From assembly GCF_010119195.1 (NCBI RefSeq), contig NZ_WRXL01000005.1, positions 62,001-126,000 of the forward strand: a stretch of DNA of 64,000 nt. The letters run 5' to 3'. Shown piece after piece: positions 9,497 to 24,978 of this stretch. A program made the position numbers and the translations under genes. Position 1 is the first letter of the stretch; every line of letters starts with the position of its first letter. Origin of the DNA: Haloarcula salina. GTDB taxonomy: Archaea > Halobacteriota > Halobacteria > Halobacteriales > Haloarculaceae. The notes beneath the pieces are model-generated. The model searched no databases, was not told the DNA's origin, and saw only the letters and a program-made list of their open reading frames with translations.

Positions 9497-10030
9497 ATGA
9501 GTGACGCACAGACGGACGTTCGCGCGTACACGCTGCGGCTGGAACTGGTCGACGAGCCCGGGGAACTCCTGCGGTCGCTGCGACCGATCGCCGAGCACGG
9601 CGGCAATCTCCTCTCGATCTTCCACGAGCGCGGGAACGTGACCCCGCGCGGGCACATCCCCGTCGAGGTCGACATCGAGGCGACGCCGGACCGCTTCGAG
9701 ACGATCGTCGATGGCCTCCGCGACGCGGGTATCAACGTCATCCAGGCCGGGACCGAGCGCTACAGCGAGGGGATGACCATCATCCTCTCGGGGCACCTCA
9801 TCGACACCGACCTCTCCGACACGCTCTCGCAGATTCAGGAGACCAAGAGCGCGACGGTCACGGACATCTCGCTGTCCGCGCCGGCGGGGGCGTCCGACAT
9901 CTCGAGCGCCCGGATGAAACTGGCGACCGAGTCGGGATCGACCGAGGAAGTCCTCTCGGTCATCCGCGACATCGCCGAGGAGAAGGACCTGCGGCTGGTC
10001 GAACCCCTCACGACCGGAGGCGCGGAATGA
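9497..10030 (+). CDS. ACT-domain amino-acid-binding protein
   Basis: A 177-residue protein with an N-terminal ACT domain (YTLRLELVDEPGELLRSLRPIAEHGGNLLSI is the usual beta-alpha start, with the LVDEPGEL turn), and a second ACT-like half after residue 90. ACT domains bind amino acids and regulate amino-acid enzymes. Its stop overlaps the start of homoserine dehydrogenase by 4 nt (ATGA), so the two are translated together. The likely role is a detached regulatory subunit giving threonine or methionine feedback on that enzyme, whose own sequence lacks an ACT domain. The role is inferred from context; the fold is seen directly. Confidence 0.88.
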   Translation: MSDAQTDVRAYTLRLELVDEPGELLRSLRPIAEHGGNLLSIFHERGNVTPRGHIPVEVDIEATPDRFETIVDGLRDAGINVIQAGTERYSEGMTIILSGHLIDTDLSDTLSQIQETKSATVTDISLSAPAGASDISSARMKLATESGSTEEVLSVIRDIAEEKDLRLVEPLTTGGAE

Positions 10031-10974
10031 GGCTCGCGGTCCTCGGTGCCGGGGCCGTCGGCGCGTCGGTCGTCGAACTGGCCGCCGACTACGGCCACTC
10101 GGTCACCGCCTTCGCCGACTCCAGCAGCGCCGTCGTCGACTCGGACGGCATCGACGCGGCCGACGCGCTGGCCGCGAAGCGAACGGACGGCGTCGTCGGG
10201 TCCGACGACCCGAGCGACGCGCTGTCGGCCGACTACGACGTGCTCGTCGAGGCCACGCCGACGACGCTCGGTGACGCCGAACCGGGATTCGGCCACGTCC
10301 GAACCGCGCTCGAACGCGACCGGCACGTCGTGCTGGCGAACAAGGGACCCATCGCCGAGCGCTTCCCCGAGATCAGGTCCCTCGAAGCGGAGAGCGCCGG
10401 CGAGGTCCGGTTCGGAGCGACGGTCGGCGGTGCGATGCCCGTCGTCACGACCATCGAGGACGTCGGCCCGTCGCGGATCTCGGCGATGCGCGGGGTCCTG
10501 AACGGGACGGCGAACTTCGTCCTCTCGCGGATGGCGGCCGAAGGGCTGGACTACGAGCACGTGCTGGCGGAGGCGCAAGACCTCGGCGTCGCCGAGGCCG
10601 ACCCCAGTTTCGACGTGGACGGGACGGACGCCGCGCTGAAGGGCGTCATCGTCGCCAACGTCCTCGACCCGGACGGCGGGTACACGCTCGCCGACGCCGA
10701 CGTGGACGGGATCGAGGACCTCCCGGGCAGTATGCTCGAACTGGCCAAAGAGGACGGCCGGACGATCCGACTCATCGTCGAGTTCGCCGACGGGCAGGTG
10801 CGCGTCGGTCCGCGCCTCGTCCCCGAGAACGCGGCGCTCGCGCCGGCGGGGACGCGCAACGCCGTCCAGTTGGAGACGGAACACGCCGGCCAGCTCGATA
10901 TCTCCGGTCGCGGAGCCGGCGGAGCGGAGACGGCGAGCGCGGTGCTGTCGGACGTCGAGCGGCTAGAATCCTGA
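10027..10974 (+). CDS. hom: Homoserine dehydrogenase
   Basis: A 315-residue enzyme reducing aspartate semialdehyde to homoserine with NAD(P)H, in threonine and methionine synthesis. It starts MRLAVLGAGAVGASVVEL (Rossmann GxGxxG). Other family marks are LANKGPIAERF with the conserved Lys, the substrate-binding GVLNGTANFVLSRM, and EADPSFDVDGTDAALK. It is shorter than bacterial enzymes of about 430 residues because the C-terminal ACT domain is absent; that domain is probably supplied by the upstream gene, which overlaps by 4 nt. Only 7 nt separate its stop from the convergent aroD gene. Confidence 0.93.
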   Translation: MRLAVLGAGAVGASVVELAADYGHSVTAFADSSSAVVDSDGIDAADALAAKRTDGVVGSDDPSDALSADYDVLVEATPTTLGDAEPGFGHVRTALERDRHVVLANKGPIAERFPEIRSLEAESAGEVRFGATVGGAMPVVTTIEDVGPSRISAMRGVLNGTANFVLSRMAAEGLDYEHVLAEAQDLGVAEADPSFDVDGTDAALKGVIVANVLDPDGGYTLADADVDGIEDLPGSMLELAKEDGRTIRLIVEFADGQVRVGPRLVPENAALAPAGTRNAVQLETEHAGQLDISGRGAGGAETASAVLSDVERLES

Positions 10975-10981
10975 GAACCGG

Positions 10982-11728
10982 TCAGTCAGAAAGCGTCAGT
11001 TCCTGCGGGACGGCGACCTCTTCGGCTTCGAGCATGTCGATGAGGTGCTCGCCCGCGCTCGCGTTCTTCGTCATGTCGATCAGCGTGCGGAGCTTCTCGA
11101 GGGGAATCTGGCCGGGCGCGTAGTCGTTGTCGTCGCCCTCCAGCGGCGCGTAGCCGAGTTTCGACCCGTAGAGGTGAGCGATGACGCGGGTGTGGCTTCC
11201 GATCTCGCCCATCGAGATACCGGCGACGTCGATACCGCGCTGGGTCGCGGTGTTGACGGCGTCGAGGAGCGTGAGGGCGTCCGCGTTGCTCCGGGGAAAC
11301 GTGGCAACCTTCGCGATGTCGCCGTACTCCGCGCACTGCGCGATGATGGCGTCGAGGACGTCCTGGTCGGGGGTCCCTTCGAAGTCGTGGTGCGAGATGA
11401 TCAACTGGACGTCGTTCTCGCGGAACTCGTGGACGATCCACTCTTTGGCGCGAGCGATTTCGAGTTCGATGTCGACGAACTCGACCGCGTCGAAGCGGGA
11501 GGCGGCGAAGAGGTCGTCGAGTCGGCCGGAGTCGGTCGCTTTGCCGCCGAACCACCGTGTCCGGTTCGTCGCGATAAGAGGGAGTTCGCCGTCGTACGAA
11601 GCGATCTGTTCTACGGGGTCGGTCGCTTTGTCCATCCGAAATTCGATGAGGTCTGCCACTCCTCGGGCGTCAGGTTCCCGTGTGAGATCGTTTGTTGTGG
11701 CCGCGAGAGCGAAATCGTCTATTTTCAT
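10982..11728 (-). CDS. aroD: 3-Dehydroquinate dehydratase, type I
   Basis: A 248-residue class I enzyme converting 3-dehydroquinate to 3-dehydroshikimate through a Schiff base. Conserved active-site residues by comparison with E. coli AroD: EFR near residue 29, Glu in FVDIELE, His114 in ISHHDF (general acid/base), Lys140 in DIAKVATF (Schiff base), Arg181 in SHTRV and Gln207 in APGQI. An in-frame ATG five codons upstream (11743) exists, but a TATA-like box at 11751-11760 lies 27 nt before 11728, so I chose the leaderless start MKIDDF. It is convergent with hom. A degenerate paralogue lies about 375 bp upstream on the same strand. Confidence 0.92.
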   Translation of the reverse strand: MKIDDFALAATTNDLTREPDARGVADLIEFRMDKATDPVEQIASYDGELPLIATNRTRWFGGKATDSGRLDDLFAASRFDAVEFVDIELEIARAKEWIVHEFRENDVQLIISHHDFEGTPDQDVLDAIIAQCAEYGDIAKVATFPRSNADALTLLDAVNTATQRGIDVAGISMGEIGSHTRVIAHLYGSKLGYAPLEGDDNDYAPGQIPLEKLRTLIDMTKNASAGEHLIDMLEAEEVAVPQELTLSD

Positions 11729-11743
11729 GGTATCCTTTACCAT

Positions 11744-12103: not shown

Positions 12104-12784
12104 TCAGCTCGGTGTCGTTCTCGGACGGACGGTCGTCTCGAAGAGTTCCGAGAGCGCGCCCAGTTCGATGTCGCCGGCGTCCGTTTCAGTCCCGGGAAGC
12201 GGCGCGTAACACAGTCGGGCACCGTAGAACACGCCGACGACGCGGGTGTGCTGGCCGATCGTCCCCCGGGCGTGACCGGTGACGGCCAGCCCGCGATTGG
12301 CGGCGTCGTTGAGCGACTGGAGCAATACCAGCGCGTCGTTTCGGGACTCCGCCCGGACGACGACCTTGCCCAGGTGACCGTACCGAGCGGTCTCCTCGAA
12401 CCACCGGTCGAGGGTCGCCTTCGAGGGCGTCCGGTCGGTGTCGTACGCCGAGACGATCAGTTCGACGCCCCGGTCGCGGAGCTCGTCGAGCACCCACCGC
12501 TCCTCGGTGAGCGTCTCCAGCTCCAGGTCGACCAGTCCGACGGCGTCGTCCGCGGCGGCCGCCACCAGCCGTTCCAGTCGCTCGGCTTCCCCAGCGGTTC
12601 CGCCCGCCCACGCCGGCCGGTTCGCGACGATCAGCGGCGCCGACCCGTCGTAGGCGGCCAACTGGTCGAGCGGGTCGTCCGCCCGGTCGAGTCGGAACTC
12701 GACGTAATCGGCGGCCGACGGCGCACCCGACACCGCGCGCAGGTCGTCCGTCACGCCCACGAGGGCGTAGTCGCTCTCCGTCAT
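12104..12784 (-). CDS. AroD-like paralogue without the catalytic histidine
   Basis: A 226-residue protein that aligns with the neighbouring AroD without gaps for the first 190 or so residues. It keeps EFRLD, the Glu of LVDLELE, the Schiff-base Lys140 (GHLGKVVV) and Arg181 (QHTRV). The catalytic His114 is Tyr (VSAYDT instead of ISHHDF), and the APGQ glutamine region reads DAGDIEL. It is therefore probably not a normal dehydroquinate dehydratase: it may be inactive, regulatory, or changed in reaction. The frame is intact and shows no stop, so it seems to be kept by selection. The start is the ATG at 12784 (MTESDYAL); the longer open frame upstream is non-coding in character. Confidence 0.82.
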   Translation of the reverse strand: MTESDYALVGVTDDLRAVSGAPSAADYVEFRLDRADDPLDQLAAYDGSAPLIVANRPAWAGGTAGEAERLERLVAAAADDAVGLVDLELETLTEERWVLDELRDRGVELIVSAYDTDRTPSKATLDRWFEETARYGHLGKVVVRAESRNDALVLLQSLNDAANRGLAVTGHARGTIGQHTRVVGVFYGARLCYAPLPGTETDAGDIELGALSELFETTVRPRTTPS

Positions 12785-12949: not shown

Positions 12950-13549
12950 ATGAGCGCCAAGCGAGCCTGCGATAACTGGGACAACGCCGAGTGCGAGGGG
13001 GCCGTGGGCTGCCCCCCACGATGTCCGCGGTTCTTCGACGACCGCGGTGCGCCGCTGTTGATCCGTGAGTTCTGTGACGACGACGGCGACGACCTCGTCG
13101 AGATGTACGCATCGCTCGGAGTCGAGTCGCGTACGATGGGTATTCCGCCGGCAGACGGGGACGCGCTCAGACGGTGGCTGACCGGGATCGTGTCGGACGG
13201 ATGGAGCCTGCTCGCGACCCGCGACGGGCGCGTCGTCGGCCACGCGGCCGTGACGCCCGAGGGGGACAGCGAACCGGATTTCGTGGTCTTCGTGCGCCGC
13301 GGGTTCCAGGGCCGAGGCATCGGGACGGAACTGGTCAAACAGGTGCTGGCGTACGCCGAGGACCGGGACCACGAGCGGTTGCTGCTCGACGTCTCGCCGG
13401 AGAACGAGCGAGCGATCACCGTCTATCAGAACGTCGGCTTCGAAACGGTGGAGCGGACCGGGATGAGCCGAACGATGGAACTCCCGTTAGCCGCGCCGGT
13501 CGTCGAGGAATGCCAGCGACCGCCGGCGGACCGCTATAGTAGCCATTGA
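12950..13549 (+). CDS. GNAT acetyltransferase with Cys4 N-terminus
   Basis: A 199-residue acyl-CoA-dependent N-acetyltransferase. The acetyl-CoA loop reads RGFQGRGIGTELV (Q/R-x-x-G-x-G), and the end of the domain reads ITVYQNVGFETVERTG. In front of the GNAT fold are four cysteines at 7, 15, 21 and 25 (C-x7-C-x5-C-x3-C) that could bind a metal. The substrate is unknown. The last residues (RYSSH and the TGA) are encoded by the left arm of the palindromic element at 13535-13618, so the C-terminus may have been altered by its insertion. It is divergent from the AroD-like paralogue. Confidence 0.88.
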   Translation: MSAKRACDNWDNAECEGAVGCPPRCPRFFDDRGAPLLIREFCDDDGDDLVEMYASLGVESRTMGIPPADGDALRRWLTGIVSDGWSLLATRDGRVVGHAAVTPEGDSEPDFVVFVRRGFQGRGIGTELVKQVLAYAEDRDHERLLLDVSPENERAITVYQNVGFETVERTGMSRTMELPLAAPVVEECQRPPADRYSSH

Positions 13550-13641: not shown

Positions 13642-14820
13642 TCAGTACTCTGCCGATCGATGCGGCGCCGGCGCATCCGCGGTTCCGGTCCAGAGCCACA
13701 GCCCCGCAATGGTGACGAGAAACAGAAGCGCGACGGCCGCCGTCGACACGAGGACCCGGCCGATGCCGTACGTCGCCGCGAACACGCCCACGACGGCGGG
13801 CGCGGTCGCGAGCCCCACGTACGTCGCTCCGTTCGTGACCGCGTTGACGGGACCGCTGTAGGCAGGCGCCGCCTCGACCGCGTAGCCCGAGAGGACCGGG
13901 AAGCCGCTGGAAATCGCGAGCCCGGCCACGAACACGGCGGCGAAGAGGACCGGGCCCGTGATCCCGGAGAAGGCGACAGCGAGCGCGGGGACCGCGGGAA
14001 CGAACACGACGAGGAGCAGGGAGAGCGAGGGAACGCGGTCGACGGCGACGGTACAGCCGAGCCGACCGGGGATGTACGCGAGCAGGTACGTGGACAGGAG
14101 CGAGTTCGCCAGCGCAGTGGGATAGAACGCGCGGGCGTAGTAGGCGAGCCAGGTGAACAGCGTCCCTTCGAGCGCGCCGACGAGGACCATGCCGAGACAG
14201 GTCCCGACGACCGCCGGGCGGCGACAGAGCGTCCGCAACGCCGCTGGCGAGACGGACCGCTCGGCCGCCATGGACGGCAGTTCGTATCGGCCGGCGAGCG
14301 CGAGCGCGGGGAGGAAGCAGCCCGCGAGGACGAGGAAGATCACGCGCCAGTCCGCAACGGAGAACACGACGCTGACCAACTGTGGGCTGAGGACCGCGCC
14401 GAACGCCCAGACGAGGGTGTACGCGGCGAACATCCGCCCGCGGGCGTCGGGGTAGACGTGGCTCAGGACGACGCGGTCGAGTCCGCGGAAGGCCCCCGCG
14501 GCGGTCCCCTGCACGGCGAGCGCGAGCAGGAAGACGGGGTAGCTCGGGGCGAACGCGGCCAGGACGAGCGCGAGCGGCGTGACGAGCGTCCCCACCGCCA
14601 GCAGTCGCCGCATCGGCAGTCGGCCGGCGAACAGGCCGCTCACCACGACTGCCCCGAGGAAGCCAACGGTTCCGGCGGGGGCGACGAGGCCCAACGCCGC
14701 CTCGGTCACGTCGAACACCTCGCCGATGCGTGAGAGAATCGGCCCCCGTGCCTGCATCGCCGCCGCGTCACCGAAGATGAACACGAAGACGGCGAGCGTC
14801 CACGCTCGAGAGCGGTCCAT
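13642..14820 (-). CDS. MFS transporter
   Basis: A 392-residue major facilitator with about 12 membrane helices; examples are LGLVAPAGTVGFLGAVVVSG and LSLLLVVFVPAVPALAVAF. The loop after the second helix, FAGRLPMRRLLAVGT, is a form of MFS motif A. The substrate cannot be predicted; the gene lies at the edge of a catabolic island, with TTTCAA-type palindromes upstream. The ATG at 14847 would add MPIIARSVG, but a TTTTGC TATA-like sequence lies there about 27 nt before the ATG at 14820, so I chose the shorter form. Confidence 0.88.
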   Translation of the reverse strand: MDRSRAWTLAVFVFIFGDAAAMQARGPILSRIGEVFDVTEAALGLVAPAGTVGFLGAVVVSGLFAGRLPMRRLLAVGTLVTPLALVLAAFAPSYPVFLLALAVQGTAAGAFRGLDRVVLSHVYPDARGRMFAAYTLVWAFGAVLSPQLVSVVFSVADWRVIFLVLAGCFLPALALAGRYELPSMAAERSVSPAALRTLCRRPAVVGTCLGMVLVGALEGTLFTWLAYYARAFYPTALANSLLSTYLLAYIPGRLGCTVAVDRVPSLSLLLVVFVPAVPALAVAFSGITGPVLFAAVFVAGLAISSGFPVLSGYAVEAAPAYSGPVNAVTNGATYVGLATAPAVVGVFAATYGIGRVLVSTAAVALLFLVTIAGLWLWTGTADAPAPHRSAEY

Positions 14821-15280: not shown

Positions 15281-15303
15281 TAGTTCCAAACCTACCCTCA
15301 CCG

Positions 15304-16200
15304 ATGGCTAAGCAACAGGTCCTCGTTACGGGCCCGTTCGGCGAGGCTGGGGAAGCGATTCTCAACTACCTGGCCGAGAAGGACGCGTACGAGTTCACGT
15401 ACCTCAACCGGAGCGAGCATCCCGACTACGAGACGTTCGTGGCGGACGTCGCGGACTACGAGGCGATCCGACCGGCGTTCGACGGGCAGGACGCCGTGAT
15501 TCACCTCGCCGCGCAGTCCGACGCGGGCGCGGAGTTCGAGGACATCATCGAGCCCAACATCGTGGGCACGTACAACGTCCTCAAGGCCATGGAGGACGCG
15601 GGCGTCGAGAAGCTCATCTACGCCTCCTCCCAGCGCGTCATGGGACTCTACGAGGAAGACCACGCGCCGGAGCTCTACGAGGAGGACTACCCGAGCGAGT
15701 TCGACCCGTTCCGTCTCACCCACGAGACGCTCCCCAAGCCGGACGGCTACTACGGAGCTTCCAAGATGTTCGGCGAGCACATCTGTCGGTCGCACGCGCG
15801 ACGCGACGGCGCGCCGAGCCAGGTGTACTCGCTTCGCATCTCCAGCGTCCGGACCGCGGAGTACGACCACCCCTACGGCGACGCCGAACGCGGCGTCGAC
15901 CGCGGCGACGAGCACGTCGTCGACGACGACGAGGTGTGGGACCAGTCCCAGACCGGGTCGTGGGAGCGCGGCAGCGAGGAGTACGAAGAGATGGTCAAGC
16001 GGCTCAAGGCGTCCTGGACCTCCCAGCGCGACTTCGCGCACCTGCTCGAATGCTGTCTTGAAGACGAAGACGTGACCTACGACGCTTTCTACGCCGTCAG
16101 CGGCAACGCGGCGCGGTGGTTCGACATCGAGCACGCGCAGGCCGTCCTCGGTTACGAGCCACAGGACGACGGCTCGGAGTGGGACAGCCCGCCGAACTGA
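15304..16200 (+). CDS. NAD-dependent epimerase/dehydratase family protein
   Basis: A 298-residue extended short-chain dehydrogenase. The N-terminal nucleotide loop reads VTGPFGEAGEAIL, a TGxxGxxG form. The core has VIHLAAQSD, and the catalytic YxxxK is in YYGASKMFGEH. The C-terminal half carries the substrate domain. Relatives include NDP-sugar epimerases and uronate or sugar dehydrogenases. The position beside an IclR regulator, an RraA-like aldolase and a Tct transporter, far from the glycan cluster, favours a catabolic sugar- or sugar-acid oxidation role over NDP-sugar synthesis. That is inference from context. Upstream frame sequence before 15304 is not coding in character, and the TATA spacing supports this ATG. 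Confidence 0.88.
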   Translation: MAKQQVLVTGPFGEAGEAILNYLAEKDAYEFTYLNRSEHPDYETFVADVADYEAIRPAFDGQDAVIHLAAQSDAGAEFEDIIEPNIVGTYNVLKAMEDAGVEKLIYASSQRVMGLYEEDHAPELYEEDYPSEFDPFRLTHETLPKPDGYYGASKMFGEHICRSHARRDGAPSQVYSLRISSVRTAEYDHPYGDAERGVDRGDEHVVDDDEVWDQSQTGSWERGSEEYEEMVKRLKASWTSQRDFAHLLECCLEDEDVTYDAFYAVSGNAARWFDIEHAQAVLGYEPQDDGSEWDSPPN

Positions 16201-16240: not shown

Positions 16241-17017
16241 TCACTCGGCGCGTTTCAGCTTCAGTTCGATGATGTTCTTCTTGTTCATCAGCGCCGGCGC
16301 GAGGTCGTCCTCGACCCGATCGGGCCCCATCCGGCTGAGCGGACCGCTGATGCTGATCGCGCCGACGGCGTCGTCCGGTTCGGAGACGATGGCCGTGCCG
16401 ATGGCCGCCACGCCGGGGAAGTGCTCGCCGCGGTTGATCGAGTAGTCCCGCTCTCGAATCGTCTCCAGTTCCTCGAAGAGCGTGTCCCAGTCGGTGATCG
16501 TGTCGTCAGTGCGTGCCGGCAGCCCCCGCTCGTCGAGAATCTCCTCGACCGTCTCGGCCGAGAGCTCCGAGAGGATGGCCTTCCCCGTCGCGGTCGTGTG
16601 CAGGTACAGGTGGTCGCCCAGCGGCGCGTCGTCGTCGATCGACTGCTGACTGTGTGACTTGTACAACTGGACCGCGTAACCGTCCTCCTCGACGGTGATG
16701 TTCGTGTGTTCGCCGGTCTGCTCCTGCAAGTCGTCGATCTCCGACTTGGCCGCCCGGAACAGTGCCATCTCGTCGCGCATCCGGCCGCCCCGTTCGAGGA
16801 ACCGGAAACTGCAGTGATAGTCGTTGCCTTTGCGCACGACGTAGCCCGTCTCGACGAGGGTCCCCAGGTGGATGTGCGCCGTACTGGGCGGCATATCGAG
16901 GGCCTCAGCCGTCTCGGAGAGCGTCGCCCCGTCTGCCTCGTCGAGGAACGCCATGACGGCGAACGCCCGTTCGACGCTCTGCAACCGCCGCGACCCGGAT
17001 TCGGACTGGTCTGCCAT
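16241..17017 (-). CDS. IclR-family transcription regulator
   Basis: A 258-residue regulator: an N-terminal winged helix (about 10-70, with TLSETAEALDMPPSTAHIHL as the helix-turn-helix) and a C-terminal IclR effector domain (about 80-255, with TTATGKAILSEL and a late SISGPLSRM). IclR proteins bind palindromes and respond to small carboxylates or aromatics, most often controlling catabolic genes. A TATA-like CTTAAC at 17041 fits a leaderless start at 17017, and one TTTCAA-type palindrome lies directly upstream of that box at 17058-17074, which suggests autoregulation. It is convergent with the epimerase gene and upstream of an RraA-like gene on the same strand. Confidence 0.92.
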   Translation of the reverse strand: MADQSESGSRRLQSVERAFAVMAFLDEADGATLSETAEALDMPPSTAHIHLGTLVETGYVVRKGNDYHCSFRFLERGGRMRDEMALFRAAKSEIDDLQEQTGEHTNITVEEDGYAVQLYKSHSQQSIDDDAPLGDHLYLHTTATGKAILSELSAETVEEILDERGLPARTDDTITDWDTLFEELETIRERDYSINRGEHFPGVAAIGTAIVSEPDDAVGAISISGPLSRMGPDRVEDDLAPALMNKKNIIELKLKRAE

Positions 17018-17148: not shown

Positions 17149-17838
17149 TTACTGGATCGAGTCTTCCGGGCCGACGACGTTCAGGTCCTCGAACAGTTCG
17201 TCGTAACCGTTGAGTTCGAAGAGGTACTCACCCTGGACGAGTTCGTCGCGCACGGTGTCTTCTGCGTCGAGTTTCTCGCGGGACCGTTCGAGGACTTCCG
17301 CCGCTCCCGACCCCGGGATGACGGCGAGGCCGTCGTCATCGCCGACGACGATGTCGCCGGGATCGACGCTGACGCCGCCGACGGAGATCGTGACGTTGAC
17401 CGACCCCGGATCCTGCTTGAGCGGTCCCTGGGGATTCGTCCCGCGCCCGTAGACGGGGAACTCCATCTCGGCTATCTCGCGGCTGTCCCGGTACGCGCCG
17501 TCGATGACGACGCCGGCGAGGTCGTTCACCTGACAGGACTTGCACATCAGTTCGCCCAGGTGGCCGGTGTCGGTGTAGCCGTCGCAGTCGATGACGAGGA
17601 CGTCGCCGGGCTCGGCCATCGTGATCGCCTTGTGGATGATGAGGTTGTCACCGGGGGAAGCGTTGACTGTGATCGCCGTTCCGGCCAGCTCGACGCCGTC
17701 GTACGCGGGTTCGATGCCCGCGTCCATCGTCAGTCCGATGTTCCCCGTCACGTCGGAGACGATAGTGCTGGGCACGTCCTCGAAAGCCTCGACGATTTCG
17801 CGGTCCGGTCGCTGCACCTCGTGCTCGATCGTGTGCAT
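17149..17838 (-). CDS. RraA-family aldolase-like protein
   Basis: A 229-residue member of the RraA/HMG-aldolase family. It shows the substrate-binding GELMCKS segment and the metal- and pyruvate-binding VVIDGAYRDSREI (Arg-Asp pair), followed by FPVYGRGTNP. Family members include 4-hydroxy-4-methyl-2-oxoglutarate and 4-carboxy-4-hydroxy-2-oxoadipate aldolases and oxaloacetate decarboxylases; true RNase E inhibition is not expected in archaea. In this island it could cleave or decarboxylate a keto-dicarboxylate. The open frame extends to a TTG at 17850, but the ATG at 17838 (MHTIEHEV) is 27 nt after a TATA-like ATTAATCAAT and is preferred. Confidence 0.87.
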   Translation of the reverse strand: MHTIEHEVQRPDREIVEAFEDVPSTIVSDVTGNIGLTMDAGIEPAYDGVELAGTAITVNASPGDNLIIHKAITMAEPGDVLVIDCDGYTDTGHLGELMCKSCQVNDLAGVVIDGAYRDSREIAEMEFPVYGRGTNPQGPLKQDPGSVNVTISVGGVSVDPGDIVVGDDDGLAVIPGSGAAEVLERSREKLDAEDTVRDELVQGEYLFELNGYDELFEDLNVVGPEDSIQ

Positions 17839-17991: not shown

Positions 17992-19002
17992 TTACTGCTC
18001 TTCGATGCCCAGTTCGTCCACGAGGTTCCCGTAGTACTCGTACTGCTGCTCGAGGAACGAATTGAACTCCTCGGGGCCGCGCTGCACCCGGATGAAGTCG
18101 TTGTTGTTCATGAACTCGACGAAGCCCTCGTCCTCGTAGATGGAGTTGTAGACCTCGGTGATCTGCTGCTTGCGCTCGTCGGAGATGTCGGACTGGACGA
18201 AGTGACCGAGCCAGGAGCCGATGCGGACTTCGAGCCCCTCGGCGGTCAGCGTCGGCGTGTCCGGGAGGGCCTCGACCTGCTTGTCGAAGGCGACGCCGAG
18301 CGCCTGGAGCGGGCCGTCGCGGACCTGCGCCGCGGCTTCGGCCGCGCCGACAGCGGTACAGTCGGCTTCCTGGTTCACGACGGCCTGCATCGCGGGCGCC
18401 GCGCCGTCGTAGGAGACGTGCTCGACCTGGACGCCGGCCTCGCTGGCGATCGCCGCGGCGGCCATGTGCCACGAGGAACCGAACCCGGAGTTTGCCATCT
18501 GGTAGGTGTTGCTCTGGCCGTACTCGCGCCACTCCTGGACCGTGCTGAACTCGGCGTCCTCGTGGACGAGAAGCGCCGCCGGGAACTCGGTGTACTGCAT
18601 GATCGGCGTGATGTCGTCCGGGCTCAGGTCGGCGATCCCGAGGTGCTCGAACAGCGCGATCTCGGGGGCCGCGACGCCGATCGTGTGCCCGTCGGGGTCG
18701 GCGTTAGCGGCGGCGTTCATCCCGACTGACCCGGAGCCGCCGGTCTGGTTGCTCACGTTCCAGGCGACGTCTGTGTAGTTCTCGCCGGCCGAGGCCACGG
18801 CCCGACTCGTTCGGTCGGCCCCGCCGCCGGCGGCCCACGGCGAGACGATTTCGATCGGTCGCGCCGGCCACTCCTGCTGGCCCGAGAGGCTGCTCATGCA
18901 GCCCGCGGTCATCGCGATCCCACCGGCGCCCAGGCTCCGGAGGAGGTTACGACGGTTCACAACGGTACGGTCGCTCGTGCCGCTACTGGTGTTGTCCACC
19001 AT
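17992..19002 (-). CDS. tctC: Tripartite tricarboxylate transporter substrate-binding protein
   Basis: A 336-residue extracellular binding protein of the Tct/Bug family. The N-terminus has a twin-arginine signal with lipobox (NRRNLLRSLGAGG, then TAGC), so it is probably a Tat-exported lipoprotein. The mature part starts with WPARPIEIVSPWAAGGGADRT, the usual Bug-protein first strand and carboxylate-binding loop, and has TGGSGSVGM and TPTLTAEG further on. It should bring a carboxylate to the TctAB membrane part encoded 2.3 kb away on the other strand. A TATA-like CTTTTAAG on the minus strand near 19032 lies about 29 nt before the ATG. Splitting tctC from tctBA is unusual but not unique. Confidence 0.92.
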   Translation of the reverse strand: MVDNTSSGTSDRTVVNRRNLLRSLGAGGIAMTAGCMSSLSGQQEWPARPIEIVSPWAAGGGADRTSRAVASAGENYTDVAWNVSNQTGGSGSVGMNAAANADPDGHTIGVAAPEIALFEHLGIADLSPDDITPIMQYTEFPAALLVHEDAEFSTVQEWREYGQSNTYQMANSGFGSSWHMAAAAIASEAGVQVEHVSYDGAAPAMQAVVNQEADCTAVGAAEAAAQVRDGPLQALGVAFDKQVEALPDTPTLTAEGLEVRIGSWLGHFVQSDISDERKQQITEVYNSIYEDEGFVEFMNNNDFIRVQRGPEEFNSFLEQQYEYYGNLVDELGIEEQ

Positions 19003-19188: not shown

Positions 19189-20229
19189 ATGCGCGGGTTA
19201 GCCAAGACTGCTCCCGAAGCCGGCAGTATGGAACTCATCGACGTCGACAGACCGACACCGGCGGCCGACGAAGTCCTCATCGAAGTGGACTACGCGGGGC
19301 TCTGTGGCAGCGACGCCGGAATCTATCAGTTCAAGTCGGCGTTCGAACGAATGAACTTCCCGACGATCATCGGCCACGAATACACCGGAAGCGTCGTCGA
19401 GCTCGGCGCTGACGTCACGCGGTTCGACGTGGGCGATCAGGTCATCGAGCGGCCGATTCGCGGCTGTGGCGAGTGCTATCAGTGCGAAATCGGGATGGAG
19501 AACATCTGTCAGGACACCGAGCTCACCGGAATTGACCACGACGGCGCGTACGCCCAGTACGTCGTCGCCCCCGAGACGTCGTTGCAGGCGGTTCCGAGTC
19601 ACGTCTCGCCGCGCCACGCCGCACTGGTCGAACCCACGGCCATCTGCACCCGAGCGGTCATCGAGAACTCGCGGGTGAGTCCCGGGGACCGCGTGCTCGT
19701 CGCCGGCCCCGGTCCGATGGGACTGCTGTCGGCTCAGATCGCCGACGCCCAGGGCGGCGAAGTCGTCGTCGCCGGGGTCGGCCAGGACACGAATTACCGG
19801 CTCCCGCTCGCGGGAGACCTCGGATTCCCGACCATCAACATCGAGGAAGAGGACCTCGCGGCGTACCGCGAGGACCGCACCGACGGCGTCGGCTACGACG
19901 TGGTGTTCGATACGACGGGGCATCCGTCCGGGCTGCCGATGGCCGCCCGGGAAGTCCGCAAAGGCGGACAGATCGTTCTCGTCGGACAGACGGGTGAGAC
20001 ATCGATGGAGTACACGCCGCTGGTCCGCGCCGAGGTCGAACTCCAGTGTACTTACGGTGCGATGTACCGAGACTTCGATCGAGCGCTCCGGCTGATCGGG
20101 TCGGGCGACGTTGACCACGAGACCTTCCTCGACGACCGTTTCAGCCTGCTTGACGCCGACGAAGCGTTCGAGGCGTTCCTCGCGGGCGAGACGTGCAAGC
20201 CGGTGTTCGACGTGTCCGTACTCCGATAA
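19189..20229 (+). CDS. Zinc-dependent alcohol/polyol dehydrogenase (MDR family)
   Basis: A 346-residue medium-chain dehydrogenase that should oxidise an alcohol or polyol with NAD(P). The catalytic zinc ligands are the Cys of LCGSD and the His-Glu of GHEYTG. The structural zinc site is four cysteines in CGECYQCEIGMENIC. The Rossmann loop reads AGPGPMGLLSAQ. The closest functional families are threonine 3-, sorbitol and galactitol dehydrogenases; the substrate is not predictable. It sits between tctC and a metallo-hydrolase gene inside the putative carboxylate/sugar-acid island, so it may oxidise the imported compound or a derivative. Confidence 0.92.
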   Translation: MRGLAKTAPEAGSMELIDVDRPTPAADEVLIEVDYAGLCGSDAGIYQFKSAFERMNFPTIIGHEYTGSVVELGADVTRFDVGDQVIERPIRGCGECYQCEIGMENICQDTELTGIDHDGAYAQYVVAPETSLQAVPSHVSPRHAALVEPTAICTRAVIENSRVSPGDRVLVAGPGPMGLLSAQIADAQGGEVVVAGVGQDTNYRLPLAGDLGFPTINIEEEDLAAYREDRTDGVGYDVVFDTTGHPSGLPMAAREVRKGGQIVLVGQTGETSMEYTPLVRAEVELQCTYGAMYRDFDRALRLIGSGDVDHETFLDDRFSLLDADEAFEAFLAGETCKPVFDVSVLR

Positions 20230-20371: not shown

Positions 20372-21043
20372 TTACTCCGTCCGGGGGTCCCACTCGTTCC
20401 ACTCGCGCTCGACCAGGAAGTCGTCGAGTTTCTGCTTGGGGTTCTCGAAGACGTGCGAGCCGTGGAAGACGAGCAGGGTGTCGAAGTCGTACTCCAGCAG
20501 ATTGTAGAGATTGAGTTCGGCTGCGCGGTGGTCGTCGTTGAACAGCGCGGGCGGTGGCAGGAGGTAGCCGGCCGGGAGACCGCCACGGTCGGAGCCGTCG
20601 AGCGTGTCGCCTGAGATCAGGATGTTGCGGTCCTCGAGTAGGAGCGCCGACGTGGCCTCGGTGTGCCCGGGGACCTGAATCACGCGGATATTGCCGTCGA
20701 GCACGTCGCCGTCCTCGTATGCCACGTCGGGCTCGAAGTCGAGGTCCTCCTCTTCGAGGTGCTCGTAGAGCTTCGACTCGTCGGCCGGCATGGCGAGTTC
20801 GGGGTCGAAGGCGTCCATGACGTGCGAGAGGCCGCCGTGGTGGCCGTGGTCGCCGTGGGTGATGACGACCCGGTCGACGCCCCCGTACTCCTCCTCCAGC
20901 GTCTCGACGAGTTCCGGGCCGTTCTCGTCGAAGGCCGTGTCCACGAGCGTGACCTCGCCCTCGGGAACGTCGGTGAGGACGAGGACACGGACGTGTTCGA
21001 ACTGGATCTGGTCGATACCGTCGACTACGTTGCTGACACTCAT
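20372..21043 (-). CDS. MBL-fold metallo-hydrolase, variant metal motif (copy 1)
   Basis: A 223-residue metallo-beta-lactamase-fold protein. The usual THxHxDHxGG reads THGDHGHHGG (residues 62-71): the second His is Asp65 and the catalytic Asp is Gly67. Other metal-ligand positions look normal: His127 in VPGHTEAT, Asp146 in ISGDTLDGS, and a late His in VFHGSHVFE. The reaction is unknown; a lactone or thioester hydrolase role would suit the neighbourhood. The ATG at 21043 follows a TATA-like sequence (minus strand GATTTACATA, 21071-21080), so the longer frame to 21133 is not used. A paralogue lies at 24331-24978. Confidence 0.87.
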   Translation of the reverse strand: MSVSNVVDGIDQIQFEHVRVLVLTDVPEGEVTLVDTAFDENGPELVETLEEEYGGVDRVVITHGDHGHHGGLSHVMDAFDPELAMPADESKLYEHLEEEDLDFEPDVAYEDGDVLDGNIRVIQVPGHTEATSALLLEDRNILISGDTLDGSDRGGLPAGYLLPPPALFNDDHRAAELNLYNLLEYDFDTLLVFHGSHVFENPKQKLDDFLVEREWNEWDPRTE

Positions 21044-21302: not shown

Positions 21303-21827
21303 ATGATTAAACAGAAAGTAGCGGACTCTATTGACCAACTCGGACCGAGCAGTATCCGCTCGAACCCGCTCGCCGTGGTTTTCATCCTTCTCGCCGTCGT
21401 GGTCATCTTCAGCGCGAGCCAGTTCCCCGACGATGGACAGGTCGGGCCCGGATTCTTCCCGATTCTGGTCGCTGTCGGCATCGTCGTCTTCTCGTTTGCC
21501 GACATCCTGACGAGTACAGAGACGGACCTCGAAATCAGTGAGTTCAGCTTTCGACCGCCGGCAATCGTCCTCGGACTCCTGGTCGCGTACCTGCTGGTGA
21601 TGCCGTTCACTGGTTTCCTCGTCGGAACGATGCTGTACATGCCGGCGATCCTCTACTACTCGGGTATCAAGTCTAAGCCGCTCATGGCGGGGCTCTCGGT
21701 CGGGCTCCCGATCTTGCTGTTCTACATCTTCGCCCGGGTGTTCCTGATCCGACTCCCCGAAGGGATCGTCCCGATCTCGCGCCTGCTCCCGCGGCTCCCG
21801 CTGGTGGTGATCCCCGGATGGTTGTAG
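21303..21827 (+). CDS. tctB: Tripartite tricarboxylate transporter small membrane subunit
   Basis: A 174-residue membrane protein with four helices, as is usual for TctB: AVVFILLAVVVIFSAS, FFPILVAVGIVVFSFADIL, the pair around IVLGLLVAYLLVMPFTGFLV, and a last one near VGLPILLFYIFARVF. It helps the large subunit move the carboxylate delivered by TctC, driven by an ion gradient. Its last 10 nt overlap the start of tctA, so the two are translationally coupled. Confidence 0.9.
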   Translation: MIKQKVADSIDQLGPSSIRSNPLAVVFILLAVVVIFSASQFPDDGQVGPGFFPILVAVGIVVFSFADILTSTETDLEISEFSFRPPAIVLGLLVAYLLVMPFTGFLVGTMLYMPAILYYSGIKSKPLMAGLSVGLPILLFYIFARVFLIRLPEGIVPISRLLPRLPLVVIPGWL

Positions 21828-23299
21828 AGAACATCGGACCAGCGCTGGCGAACCTCGCGGACCCGTTCGTCATCTTTCTGATGACGGCCGGGGTCCTCCT
21901 GGGGATCATCATGGGATCGATCCCGGGGATGACGGCGACTATGACCATCGCCGTGCTCCTGTCGTTCACCTTCACGATGGATCCGGCCCACGGGATGATG
22001 CTCCTGCTGGGTATCTACGGCGGCGCGGTCTACTCCGGGTCGATCCCGGCGATACTGATTCGAACACCCGGGACGCCGTCGGCGGCCGCGACGCTGTTCG
22101 ACGGCCATCCGCTCTCGAAGAAGGGCGAGGCCGGGCGGGCGATCAAGGCGAGCACGGTCGCCTCGTTCATCGGCGGCGTCATCAGCGTGCTCGCGCTGAT
22201 GTTCTTCTCGCCGGTCATCGCCGGTGCGGCGCTGGAGTTCCGGTCGCCCGAGTTCTTCGCGCTCGCGGTCTTCGGGCTGACGATCATCGCCAGCGTGAGC
22301 GGTGACTCGATCACCAAGGGGATGGTGTCCGGCCTGCTCGGCATGCTGGTCGCGACGGTCGGCATCGACCCGATCACGGGCTTTCACCGGTACACGTTCG
22401 ACATGGCGAAGCTCCTGACGGGCGTCGAGTTCATCGCGGTGATGATCGGCCTGTTCGGCATCGCCGAGGGCCTGCGGAAGTACTCGCAGGGCATCGACGA
22501 CGATACCGACGAGGCCGCCCAGGAGATGACCGGCGTGTTCCCGTCGCGCGCCGACCTCAAGTCGATCATGCCGGTGAGCGTCGGCTCGGGGGTTCTCGGC
22601 GCGTTCATCGGCTCGATTCCGGGTGCGGGTGGTGACATCGCGGCGTTCATCACGTACAACGAAGCGACGCGGTGGCTCAAGGACAGCGTCCCCGCGTTCG
22701 GCGACGGGAACATCCGGGGCGTCGCCGCCGCGGAGTCGGGGAACAACGCCAGCACCGGCGGGGCGCTGATCCCGACACTGACGCTCGGTATCCCCGGCGA
22801 CTCGGTCTCCGCGATACTCATCGGCGCGCTGATGGTCCACGACATCAACCCCGGCCCCGGCCTCTACCAAGACGAACCGGAGCTCCTCTATACGATCTTC
22901 GTGGGTTTCCTCGTCATCTACATCCTCATCCTGATATTCGGTCTGCTGGGCGCGAACTATTGGGCCCGCCTCATCAACATCCCGTCGTCCCACATCTGGC
23001 CGGTGATCCTCGTCCTCTGTGTCATCGGCTCCATCGCGCTCCGCGGGAACGTCTTCGACGCGTGGGTGATGCTCGGCGCGGGCGTGCTCGGCTACGCCAT
23101 GCGACTGCGGGGCTACCCCCTGGCACCGATGGTGCTCGGACTGATTCTGGCCCCGATCGCCGAGGTGAACCTGCGGCGCTCGCTCGTGCTCTCGGGCGGG
23201 TCGCTCGACATCTTCTATACGAGCCCCATCGCCCTGCTCGTTCTCCTCCTCAGTGCCGCGGCGATCACCGTCCCGGCAGTGCGGTCTGTCCGCGGGTGA
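21818..23299 (+). CDS. tctA: Tripartite tricarboxylate transporter large permease subunit
   Basis: A 493-residue permease with about 11-12 membrane helices. The family signature is clear in GSIPGMTATMTIAVLL, IYGGAVYSGSIPAILIRTPG and the second half GSIPGAGGDIAAFITYN and LGIPGDSVSAILIGAL, reflecting the internal repeat of TctA. It forms the translocation path and works with TctB (overlapping by 10 nt) and TctC. The substrate is likely a di- or tricarboxylate or other acid; the family includes citrate, tartrate and aromatic-acid carriers, and the sequence alone does not decide. Confidence 0.93.
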   Translation: MVVENIGPALANLADPFVIFLMTAGVLLGIIMGSIPGMTATMTIAVLLSFTFTMDPAHGMMLLLGIYGGAVYSGSIPAILIRTPGTPSAAATLFDGHPLSKKGEAGRAIKASTVASFIGGVISVLALMFFSPVIAGAALEFRSPEFFALAVFGLTIIASVSGDSITKGMVSGLLGMLVATVGIDPITGFHRYTFDMAKLLTGVEFIAVMIGLFGIAEGLRKYSQGIDDDTDEAAQEMTGVFPSRADLKSIMPVSVGSGVLGAFIGSIPGAGGDIAAFITYNEATRWLKDSVPAFGDGNIRGVAAAESGNNASTGGALIPTLTLGIPGDSVSAILIGALMVHDINPGPGLYQDEPELLYTIFVGFLVIYILILIFGLLGANYWARLINIPSSHIWPVILVLCVIGSIALRGNVFDAWVMLGAGVLGYAMRLRGYPLAPMVLGLILAPIAEVNLRRSLVLSGGSLDIFYTSPIALLVLLLSAAAITVPAVRSVRG

Positions 23300-23634
23300 C
23301 GTTCTGCGCCGGGAATCGAGACCGTCGGATCGATTCTAACGCCTACACCGAACAGGTGTCGAAACCGTCGTGTACGGGCGTCAACGGGGACCGAACAGCA
23401 CGTGTCGAGACCCGCATCAGTTCTCGGTCGACTACGTACTGACCACCTCTCACGTCGAACAGTTGTCACCCACCCGGTAGACGGGTAGCGGCCCCTTCAC
23501 TACGAGCCGTTGCAGTCCGCCAGCCAGCTCTTTTCGACATTAGTGAAACGTCCGAAACGGGTGATATCGGCAGTTGAAGGCGTTCCTAACAGGCGTACAT
23601 TCGTTATGTAGATGCACATAATCAGCAACACAGA

Positions 23635-23651
23635 TTTCAATACTATCGAAA
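23635..23651. promoter_or_regulatory. Palindromic operator candidate, site 5
   Basis: TTTCAATACTATCGAAA, a full match to TTTCAA-N5-TCGAAA with a spacer unlike that of the other sites. It lies about 85-100 nt before the stress-protein start at 23735. Confidence 0.5.
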
Positions 23652-23698
23652 TATTTCCGTGCGTCACGCCACGCCCGCTGGCTGGGTATCGCGTCATC

Positions 23699-23709
23699 AA
23701 AAGAATAAT
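23699..23709 (+). promoter_or_regulatory. TATA-like box of the stress-protein gene
   Basis: AAAAGAATAAT ends about 26 nt before the ATG at 23735, favouring that ATG over the ATG at 23708, which overlaps the box. Confidence 0.45.
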
Positions 23710-23734
23710 GGTAGATAATGCAGTGTCATCACGT

Positions 23735-24166
23735 ATGGTCATCGTCGCGGCAGTCGACCGATCGGACAGAGCGTCCGTAGCTATCGAGGAAGCGGAAGCG
23801 CTCGCAGAGGCGTTCGACGACACGGTTCACGTCGTCCACGCACTCACGCGTTCGGAGTTTCTCGATCTCGGAATCACCAGCGCGCAAGCCGAAGAGCCAC
23901 TCGACATGGGACAAGTCCGCAGCGCCGCGGCGGAGATGGCTGAGGACGCTGTCTCGGATCTGTCGGTCCCGTACGAGACGGTCGGGCTGGTCGGGAAGCC
24001 GTCGGACGAAGTCGTGAAGTACGCCGAGGAGCAGGACGCCAGCTACGTCACAGTCAGTCCGCGAAAGCGGTCGCGAACCGGGAAAGTGCTGTTCGGGAGC
24101 GTAGCGCAGTCGATTCTTCTGAACGCGTCCTGCCCCGTCGTCACGAGCACGGTGCAGGAAGAGTAA
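23735..24166 (+). CDS. Universal stress protein (UspA family)
   Basis: A 143-residue protein, the normal length for a single UspA domain. It starts MVIVAAVDRSDRASVAIEEA, with the first strand and Asp, and ends with the nucleotide-binding segment KRSRTGKVLFGSVAQSIL and a last strand, CPVVTS. ATP binding is plausible. It follows the Tct operon and precedes the second metallo-hydrolase; a TTTCAA-type palindrome upstream may place it under the same control. Longer starts at 23612 and 23708 are open, but TATA spacing and domain length support 23735. Confidence 0.88.
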   Translation: MVIVAAVDRSDRASVAIEEAEALAEAFDDTVHVVHALTRSEFLDLGITSAQAEEPLDMGQVRSAAAEMAEDAVSDLSVPYETVGLVGKPSDEVVKYAEEQDASYVTVSPRKRSRTGKVLFGSVAQSILLNASCPVVTSTVQEE

Positions 24167-24330: not shown

Positions 24331-24978
24331 ATGTCTGTAGCAAACGTAGCTGACGGTATCCACACCGTACAGTTCGACCACGTCCGCGTGTTCGTGCTCG
24401 AAGACCGACCCCAGGGACAGACGACCCTCGTCGACGCGGCCTTCCCGGAAGACGGGGCGGAACTGGTCGACGTACTGGACGAGGAGTTCGGCGGCGTCGA
24501 CCGCGTCGTCATCACCCACGGCGACGAAGGCCACTTCGGCGGTACGCCCGACGTCGTCGACGCGTTCGATCCCGAACTGCTCGTTCCCGGCGGGGCCAGA
24601 GGATTCCACGACGCGCTCGATTTGCGCGTCGATGCGCACATCTCCGACGGCGACCTGCTCGACGGGGACCTTCGCGTCGTACAGGTGCCGGGCCATACGA
24701 TCGCGACGACCGGACTCCTCCTCGAAGCCGACGGCCTCTTCATCGCTGGTGACATCCTCGAAGGATCCGATCGGCGGGGACTTCCAGCGGGCTATCTGGT
24801 CCCGCCTGCTGAACAGTTCAACGACCACTCACACGCTGCAGCCGAACGGAACCTCGTGAAACTGTTCGAGCACGAGATCGAGACCGTTCTCGTCAGTCAC
24901 GGCTCACACGTGTACGAAGCGCCCCTGGAGAAGCTCAATGATTGGCTCATCGACCGCGAATGGGACCTCCAATACTGA
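24331..24978 (+). CDS. MBL-fold metallo-hydrolase, variant metal motif (copy 2)
   Basis: A 215-residue paralogue of the protein at 20372-21043, alike from MSVANVADGI through RRGLPAGYLVPP to VSHGSHVYE. The metal motif is THGDEGHFGG (62-71): His63, Asp65, Gly67, His68, the same change from THxHxDHxGG as in copy 1. His122 (VPGHTIAT), Asp141 (IAGDILEGS) and His190/His193 complete a probable metal site. It is about eight residues shorter in the middle. The ATG at 24331 is preferred to that at 24301, since TTCTTTATG lies about 30 nt before it. Function unknown; two copies in one island suggest related substrates. Confidence 0.87.
   Translation: MSVANVADGIHTVQFDHVRVFVLEDRPQGQTTLVDAAFPEDGAELVDVLDEEFGGVDRVVITHGDEGHFGGTPDVVDAFDPELLVPGGARGFHDALDLRVDAHISDGDLLDGDLRVVQVPGHTIATTGLLLEADGLFIAGDILEGSDRRGLPAGYLVPPAEQFNDHSHAAAERNLVKLFEHEIETVLVSHGSHVYEAPLEKLNDWLIDREWDLQY

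Follow-up and report, generated by a model that had tools for sequence, protein, structure and literature searches.

The closest described relatives of the protein studied here are the type I dehydroquinases (AroD; PF01487, TIGR01093), whose standard haloarchaeal member, OE1477R of H. salinarum, is reported as proven by knock-out and enzyme assay (PMC4162585). According to PMC9074039, the H143Q mutant of E. coli AroD is inactive and the H143A mutant severely impaired; the same source describes the dehydroquinase domain of the Candida albicans fusion protein Aro1, also a PF01487 domain, in which Gln replaces the catalytic His and the Lys is lost. The fungal repressors QutR, GaaX and TanX, which are tied to catabolic gene sets, are described as homologous to the last three AROM domains, including PF01487; they are multi-domain AROM descendants with a zinc-cluster activator (PMC10512348).

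The window, i.e. the whole stretch of 64,000 nucleotides from Haloarcula salina analysed here, carries an AroD paralogue that differs from each of these systems (the Tyr gene, encoding the Tyr protein; Table 1). The Tyr protein resembles type I AroD in fold, length, Schiff-base Lys, Glu46, Arg48 and Arg213 (H143 and similar numbers follow E. coli/Salmonella AroD), but His143 is replaced by Tyr and Gln236 by Asp or Glu, Met205 is lost, Glu86 is mostly Ala, the score lies below the aroD equivalog cut-off and the gene is located in a catabolic island. Like the C. albicans domain, it has lost the catalytic His, but it keeps the Lys and the anchoring residues. With QutR, GaaX and TanX, likened here by their description, it shares a PF01487 origin and a tie to catabolic genes, but no zinc-cluster partner occurs here, and their three-domain homology (shikimate kinase, dehydroquinase, shikimate dehydrogenase) is not found in a protein of 226 aa whose sole Pfam match is PF01487. 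Class I aldolases with a Lys/Tyr pair, e.g. the archaeal first aromatic-pathway enzyme, use the Tyr to move a proton. They share with the Tyr protein, as an idea, the TIM barrel, the Schiff-base Lys and a Tyr as acid/base, but they form a different family with no sequence link shown to it. Among the titles and abstract openings listed for haloarchaeal papers in PMC, we found no published description of the paralogue or of the island.

Table 1. Features of the locus, in positions of the window
Feature	Position	Strand	Remarks
Tyr-type AroD paralogue	12104..12784	-	226 aa, ATG at 12784, stop at 12104; open ORF, PF01487, alignment, fold
Tyr114 codon	12443-12445	-	in Tyr-type AroD paralogue
Lys140 codon	12365-12367	-	in Tyr-type AroD paralogue
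Ala60 codon (Glu86 position)	12605-12607	-	in Tyr-type AroD paralogue
Asp205 codon (Gln236 position)	12170-12172	-	in Tyr-type AroD paralogue
FGG-type aroD	10982..11743	-	start probably ATG at 11728; PF01487, tree
Homoserine dehydrogenase-like gene	10027..10974	+	PF00742; convergent to aroD
177-aa protein	9497..10030	+	ACT-like by eye; clusters with homoserine dehydrogenase-like gene and FGG aroD
GNAT acetyltransferase	12950..13549	+	divergent from Tyr gene; relative adjoins Tyr gene of G187
MFS transporter	13642..14820	-	PF07690
Island SDR (EPI)	15292..16200	+	nearest solved relatives are uronate dehydrogenases
IclR-type regulator	16241..17017	-	
RraA-like aldolase	17149..17838	-	174.1 bits vs cut-off 179 for 4-carboxy-4-hydroxy-2-oxoadipate aldolase
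TctC-type solute-binding protein	17992..19002	-	PF03401
Zn-dependent dehydrogenase	19189..20229	+	threonine-dehydrogenase-like
MBL-fold hydrolase	20372..21043	-	
Two membrane genes (21303-21827 and 21818-23299)	21303..23299	+	TctB, TctA by eye and place
Universal stress protein	23612..24166	+	PF00582
Second MBL-fold hydrolase	24331..24978	+	

By descent, the Tyr protein belongs to the type I dehydroquinase family (PF01487, 94.1 bits, E 1.8e-26, against a cut-off of 22.2). With the NCBIfam aroD equivalog (TIGR01093) it scores 63.8 bits, under the cut-off of 139.3; the neighbouring AroD, with 126 bits, is also slightly under it. The two proteins share 43% identity over 220 residues (E 6e-60), the first ~200 ungapped, which bears out the gap-free alignment described in a sequence-only reading of this DNA. 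As that reading had seen, Tyr114 faces His114 of the neighbour, and thus takes the catalytic His position by alignment, and Lys140 and Arg181 are kept, as are Glu29 and Arg31. Its replacement of APGQ by AGDI needs a shift of one residue, since APGQ is aligned with DAGD and Gln236 with Asp205. Its statement that the Glu residues are kept is correct for Glu46 and Glu116 but not for the Glu86 position, where the neighbour has Phe and the Tyr protein Ala. AlphaFold2, run on the Tyr protein with 39 aligned relatives, gave a confident barrel (mean pLDDT 90.4), an earlier model with 9 rows having a poor C-terminus (mean pLDDT 71.2). All 50 of the 50 Foldseek matches listed for the model are type I dehydroquinases or proteins containing one, and VIA-align against 3m7w gave Z 25.4 and an rmsd of 2.1 over 217 residues. 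The predicted fold is the dehydroquinase barrel. No Lys/Tyr aldolase was prominent among the VIA-align matches listed, which proves nothing by itself.

We then investigated the distribution of such proteins. From 292 genomes of the class searched with PF01487, 12 gave two matches. A profile made from nine Tyr-type proteins was run on overlapping sets of genomes: the genus (32), genus g31 (15), a class sample (391), family f4 (170) and the window's family f1 (146). In the class sample, nine genomes scored above 370 bits, and the Tyr genes of G392 and G369 were recognised in addition from their aroD neighbourhoods, as were those of G404 and G405 in family f4. We thus have 13 Tyr-type genes, two in genus g1, seven in g31, three in g64 and one in g24. 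Further members may exist, since the cut-off of 1e-62 used for f4 and f1 was too strict (the members of G369 and G405 fell below it). In all 13 proteins, catalytic H143 is Tyr, the lid residue Q236 of the APGQ motif is changed (Asp in 10, Glu in 3), M205 is lost, and the Schiff-base residue K170, E46, R48 and R213 are kept; R82 is kept in 12, and the E86 position holds Ala in nine, Glu in two, Val in one and Arg in one. K170, Q236 and E86 are named in the titles of mutant structures among the Foldseek matches; E46, R48, R82, M205 and R213 we take to have roles in AroD. Forty positions are invariant among the 13, including Y114, K140, E29, R31 and R181, and the most distant members share just 35-40% identity with the window protein. 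Out of 56 positions conserved at 95% in FGG-type (the neighbour's type) and standard aroD, 21 are kept across 11 Tyr proteins; these 11 are the only ones without His143 among 139 unique AroD-family sequences aligned. One common set of changes in 13 proteins, the window's included, excludes chance.

In a tree of 78 rows (11 Tyr, 45 FGG, the second copy of G325 and 21 further rows; the genes of G404 and G405 and G392's fourth copy, found later, are outside it), the Tyr rows form one clade (100/99) and the FGG rows another (99/96). Tyr, FGG and the G325 row are grouped at 99/97, with the Tyr clade sister to the neighbour's clade and with long branches present. The altered AroD proteins are a real clade, a duplicate of the adjacent aroD lineage that is now separate and selected. 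All 13 genes descend from one change and are therefore not independent events. The idea of a separate clade beside another aroD is supported; each Tyr genome has another aroD with His, and every one of them carries the FGG type, without Glu86.

All 13 frames are intact, and in seven g31 genomes the Tyr gene is under purifying selection (dN/dS 0.24 by Nei-Gojobori counting, vs 0.065 for FGG aroD), so the initial view that this is not a decaying copy stands. The ratio comes from g31 alone because synonymous change between the two Tyr members of the window's genus is near saturation. Nine other locus genes, aroD included, have values of 0.04-0.13. The Tyr gene has the highest value of the ten locus genes measured; it is constrained, though more weakly than the genes around it. 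Outside the island, two flanking genes reach 0.24 and 0.33. G155, which belongs to the same genus as the g31 carriers, does not have the Tyr gene.

Other second copies of AroD show different changes. That of G325 keeps His and APGQ, with R48 changed to Asn; in an AU test, the tree holding it with the Tyr clade was better by 5.24 (p-AU 0.633), and kinship of this His-bearing copy with the Tyr clade is not rejected. A further paralogue of G392, at the far end of the island (L284 5201-5935, minus strand, open frame), is 43% identical to the G325 copy and has H143 changed to Arg and K170 to Tyr. In G286, which retains standard aroD, a relic of the same gene pair (L069 7446-7979) consists of the C-terminal part of a relative of the Tyr gene, with His still in place, followed by the 17 initial codons of an aroD of the FGG type. 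Broken copies in related genomes had been named as a sign against the sequence-only reading; this fragment, from a relative that still has His, is the one weak instance. A sensitive scan of 75 loci gave no further diverged second copies beyond those described here. These three copies indicate that Tyr is not the sole fate of second copies and suggest that the ancestor of the Tyr gene had His, and the G392 paralogue, having lost both His and Lys, shows that AroD copies can live without Schiff-base chemistry. A recombinase-like gene (by eye) adjoins that paralogue. In G030, a distant PF01487 match (52 bits; L062 1501-1833) lies in a protein unlike AroD, perhaps of another family with the same fold.

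The neighbouring AroD had been taken as genuine, but with Phe at the Glu86 position it is itself unusual, as is its clade (Phe, or Ala in two). It is encoded by the only other PF01487 gene in the window's genome, from which the housekeeping aroD is missing. Both here and in G187, the place of the standard gene beside the PF01959 gene (archaeal dehydroquinate synthase) is cleanly empty, and the flanks align at 77-90% to the genus-mate G106, which has it (L203, L204 vs L189). A search of 10 genomes, the window's among them, gave no type II dehydroquinase. Since the standard aroD is missing and no type II enzyme was found, the FGG aroD, the only intact His-bearing dehydroquinase gene found in the window's genome and in that of G187, is probably the working dehydroquinase here. 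FGG aroD is present in 45 of the 391 class-sample genomes; among 34 of these searched with PF01487, 29 are without standard aroD and five have it (G236, G339, G349, G392, G325). The 177-aa and homoserine dehydrogenase-like genes accompany it in most loci, even without catabolic genes; the 177-aa protein has no Pfam or NCBIfam match.

The Tyr gene and the FGG aroD are both situated at a catabolic island with a conserved set of genes (SDR, IclR, RraA-like aldolase, TctC, Zn-dehydrogenase, MBL hydrolase, TTT/TRAP uptake genes and universal stress protein); the putative TctB and TctA genes have no NCBIfam match. This island contains or borders every one of the 13 Tyr genes; the counts given here are phylogenetically non-independent. 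Twelve stand immediately upstream of FGG aroD and in the same direction, separated from it by about 360-480 bases in the window and in g31. The exception is G187, whose Tyr gene sits some 12 kb away from aroD, at the island end that carries the SDR. The island SDR (at least 74% identity) occurs in 33 of the 391 class genomes, 32 of them FGG genomes, the remaining one (G317) having another aroD inside its island; 13 FGG genomes of the class sample are without it. Every Tyr genome carries FGG aroD. FGG aroD and the island SDR occur together in 32 class-sample genomes, of which 21 have no Tyr gene. The island and FGG aroD are found across family borders, which suggests that they spread horizontally.

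By analogy with the E. coli H143Q and H143A mutants (PMC9074039), normal dehydroquinase activity of the Tyr protein is unlikely, and another job, already proposed from the letters alone, is likely. Regulation of AroD had been offered as one such job. However, the neighbour, of a Glu86-less type, replaces the housekeeping gene, and the two genes are located within or next to the catabolic island; the likely role therefore shifts from regulating AroD to serving the island. We tentatively favour a Schiff-base enzyme whose pocket pairs Lys with Tyr and whose substrate would be a keto-acid from the island pathway. The Tyr protein would no longer be a dehydroquinase; Lys140 would form an imine with a keto-acid intermediate whose carboxylate would be held by Arg181, and Tyr114, perhaps with Asp205, would move a proton, as Tyr does in the Lys/Tyr class I aldolases. 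The outcome would be an accessory lyase, aldolase or dehydratase step. The invariant pocket, the single clade, the dN/dS of 0.24, the presence of all 13 genes in or beside the island (in G187 still at its SDR end), the barrel fold, the inactivity of H143Q in E. coli and the dehydrogenases, aldolase-like protein, hydrolase and uptake genes of the island are consistent with a modified enzyme. Against it stand the G392 island paralogue without His and Lys and the fact that the 13 cases are one change; against a core enzyme, its absence from 21 of 32 genomes and the highest dN/dS of the locus.

Binding of an island keto-acid without turnover, by a ligand-sensing pseudoenzyme that would modulate the IclR regulator, the transporter or another island protein, is a serious rival given the precedent of QutR, GaaX and TanX (as described in PMC10512348), but we consider it somewhat unlikely. 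An accessory protein of this kind would fit the optional presence and the high dN/dS, as well as the paralogue without Lys in the same kind of island (G392). Yet the Tyr protein has no DNA-binding domain, the island already has its IclR regulator, and an invariant Tyr/Lys pair would be needless for a sensor.

Another possibility is a dispensable duplicate without distinct function, weakly constrained and on its way out. The highest dN/dS of ten genes, the absence from G155 and the fragment of a relative in G286 fit such a duplicate; nevertheless, the intact frames, a dN/dS clearly below 1, the same residue in place of His in 13 of 13 and a pocket constant at 35-55% identity make it improbable. 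A decaying duplicate was rejected as the leading answer on the intact frames, the dN/dS and the uniform replacement of His. Gene order would also fit a partner or regulator of the FGG AroD, e.g. a heterodimer subunit, since 12 of the 13 genes are directly upstream of FGG aroD and every Tyr genome has it. This is quite doubtful: the G187 gene is far from aroD beside the island SDR, the gap elsewhere argues against a tight operon, and FGG aroD usually occurs without a Tyr gene (34 of 45 class genomes). That the protein is still a dehydroquinase, in which Tyr has taken over from His and Lys170, Glu46, Arg48 and Arg213 are kept, is hardly credible given the changed lid motif in all 13, the other His-bearing aroD in every Tyr genome and the published H143 mutants (PMC9074039), which rule it out as the leading answer.

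The preferred reading of a Schiff-base enzyme can be widened to a new AroD-born enzyme, which would act through Lys and Tyr as a lyase, aldolase or dehydratase; its home would be a mobile catabolic island of haloarchaea, from which some hosts would also have obtained their only dehydroquinase. This is possible, and we put it forward with reserve. Such islands would then breed AroD paralogues, one of them without Lys, and a shikimate enzyme would be re-tooled for catabolism or sensing, as for fungal QutR. At this locus, a relative carried by the island has taken the place of an essential biosynthetic gene. The Tyr protein also offers a natural experiment, with the same barrel, lysine and anchoring residues and a general base changed from His to Tyr, kept in 13 genomes and in surroundings suggestive of catabolism. 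A catalytic Tyr protein would add a new reaction to a Schiff-base fold that is among the most thoroughly studied; a sensor would be an archaeal equivalent of the fungal QutR-type repressors.

Two kinds of route come into question for the pathway served by the island. A sugar-acid or uronate route is suggested by the SDR with its likeness to uronate dehydrogenases, by the RraA-like aldolase and by a glycerate-2-kinase-like gene cluster that occurs in 9 of 41 loci (one representative scanned). A quinate/shikimate or lignin-aromatics route is suggested by aroD itself and by a gene resembling syringate/vanillate O-demethylases, which lies near FGG aroD in 5 of 41 loci (L162, L164, L166, L171, L173); the one representative scanned scored 493.6 bits, below the cut-off of 800. 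The island may serve either route. Further along the window, positions 32400-62000 hold many glycosyltransferase-like genes, judged by eye from the ORF list to be for polysaccharide or S-layer glycan synthesis.
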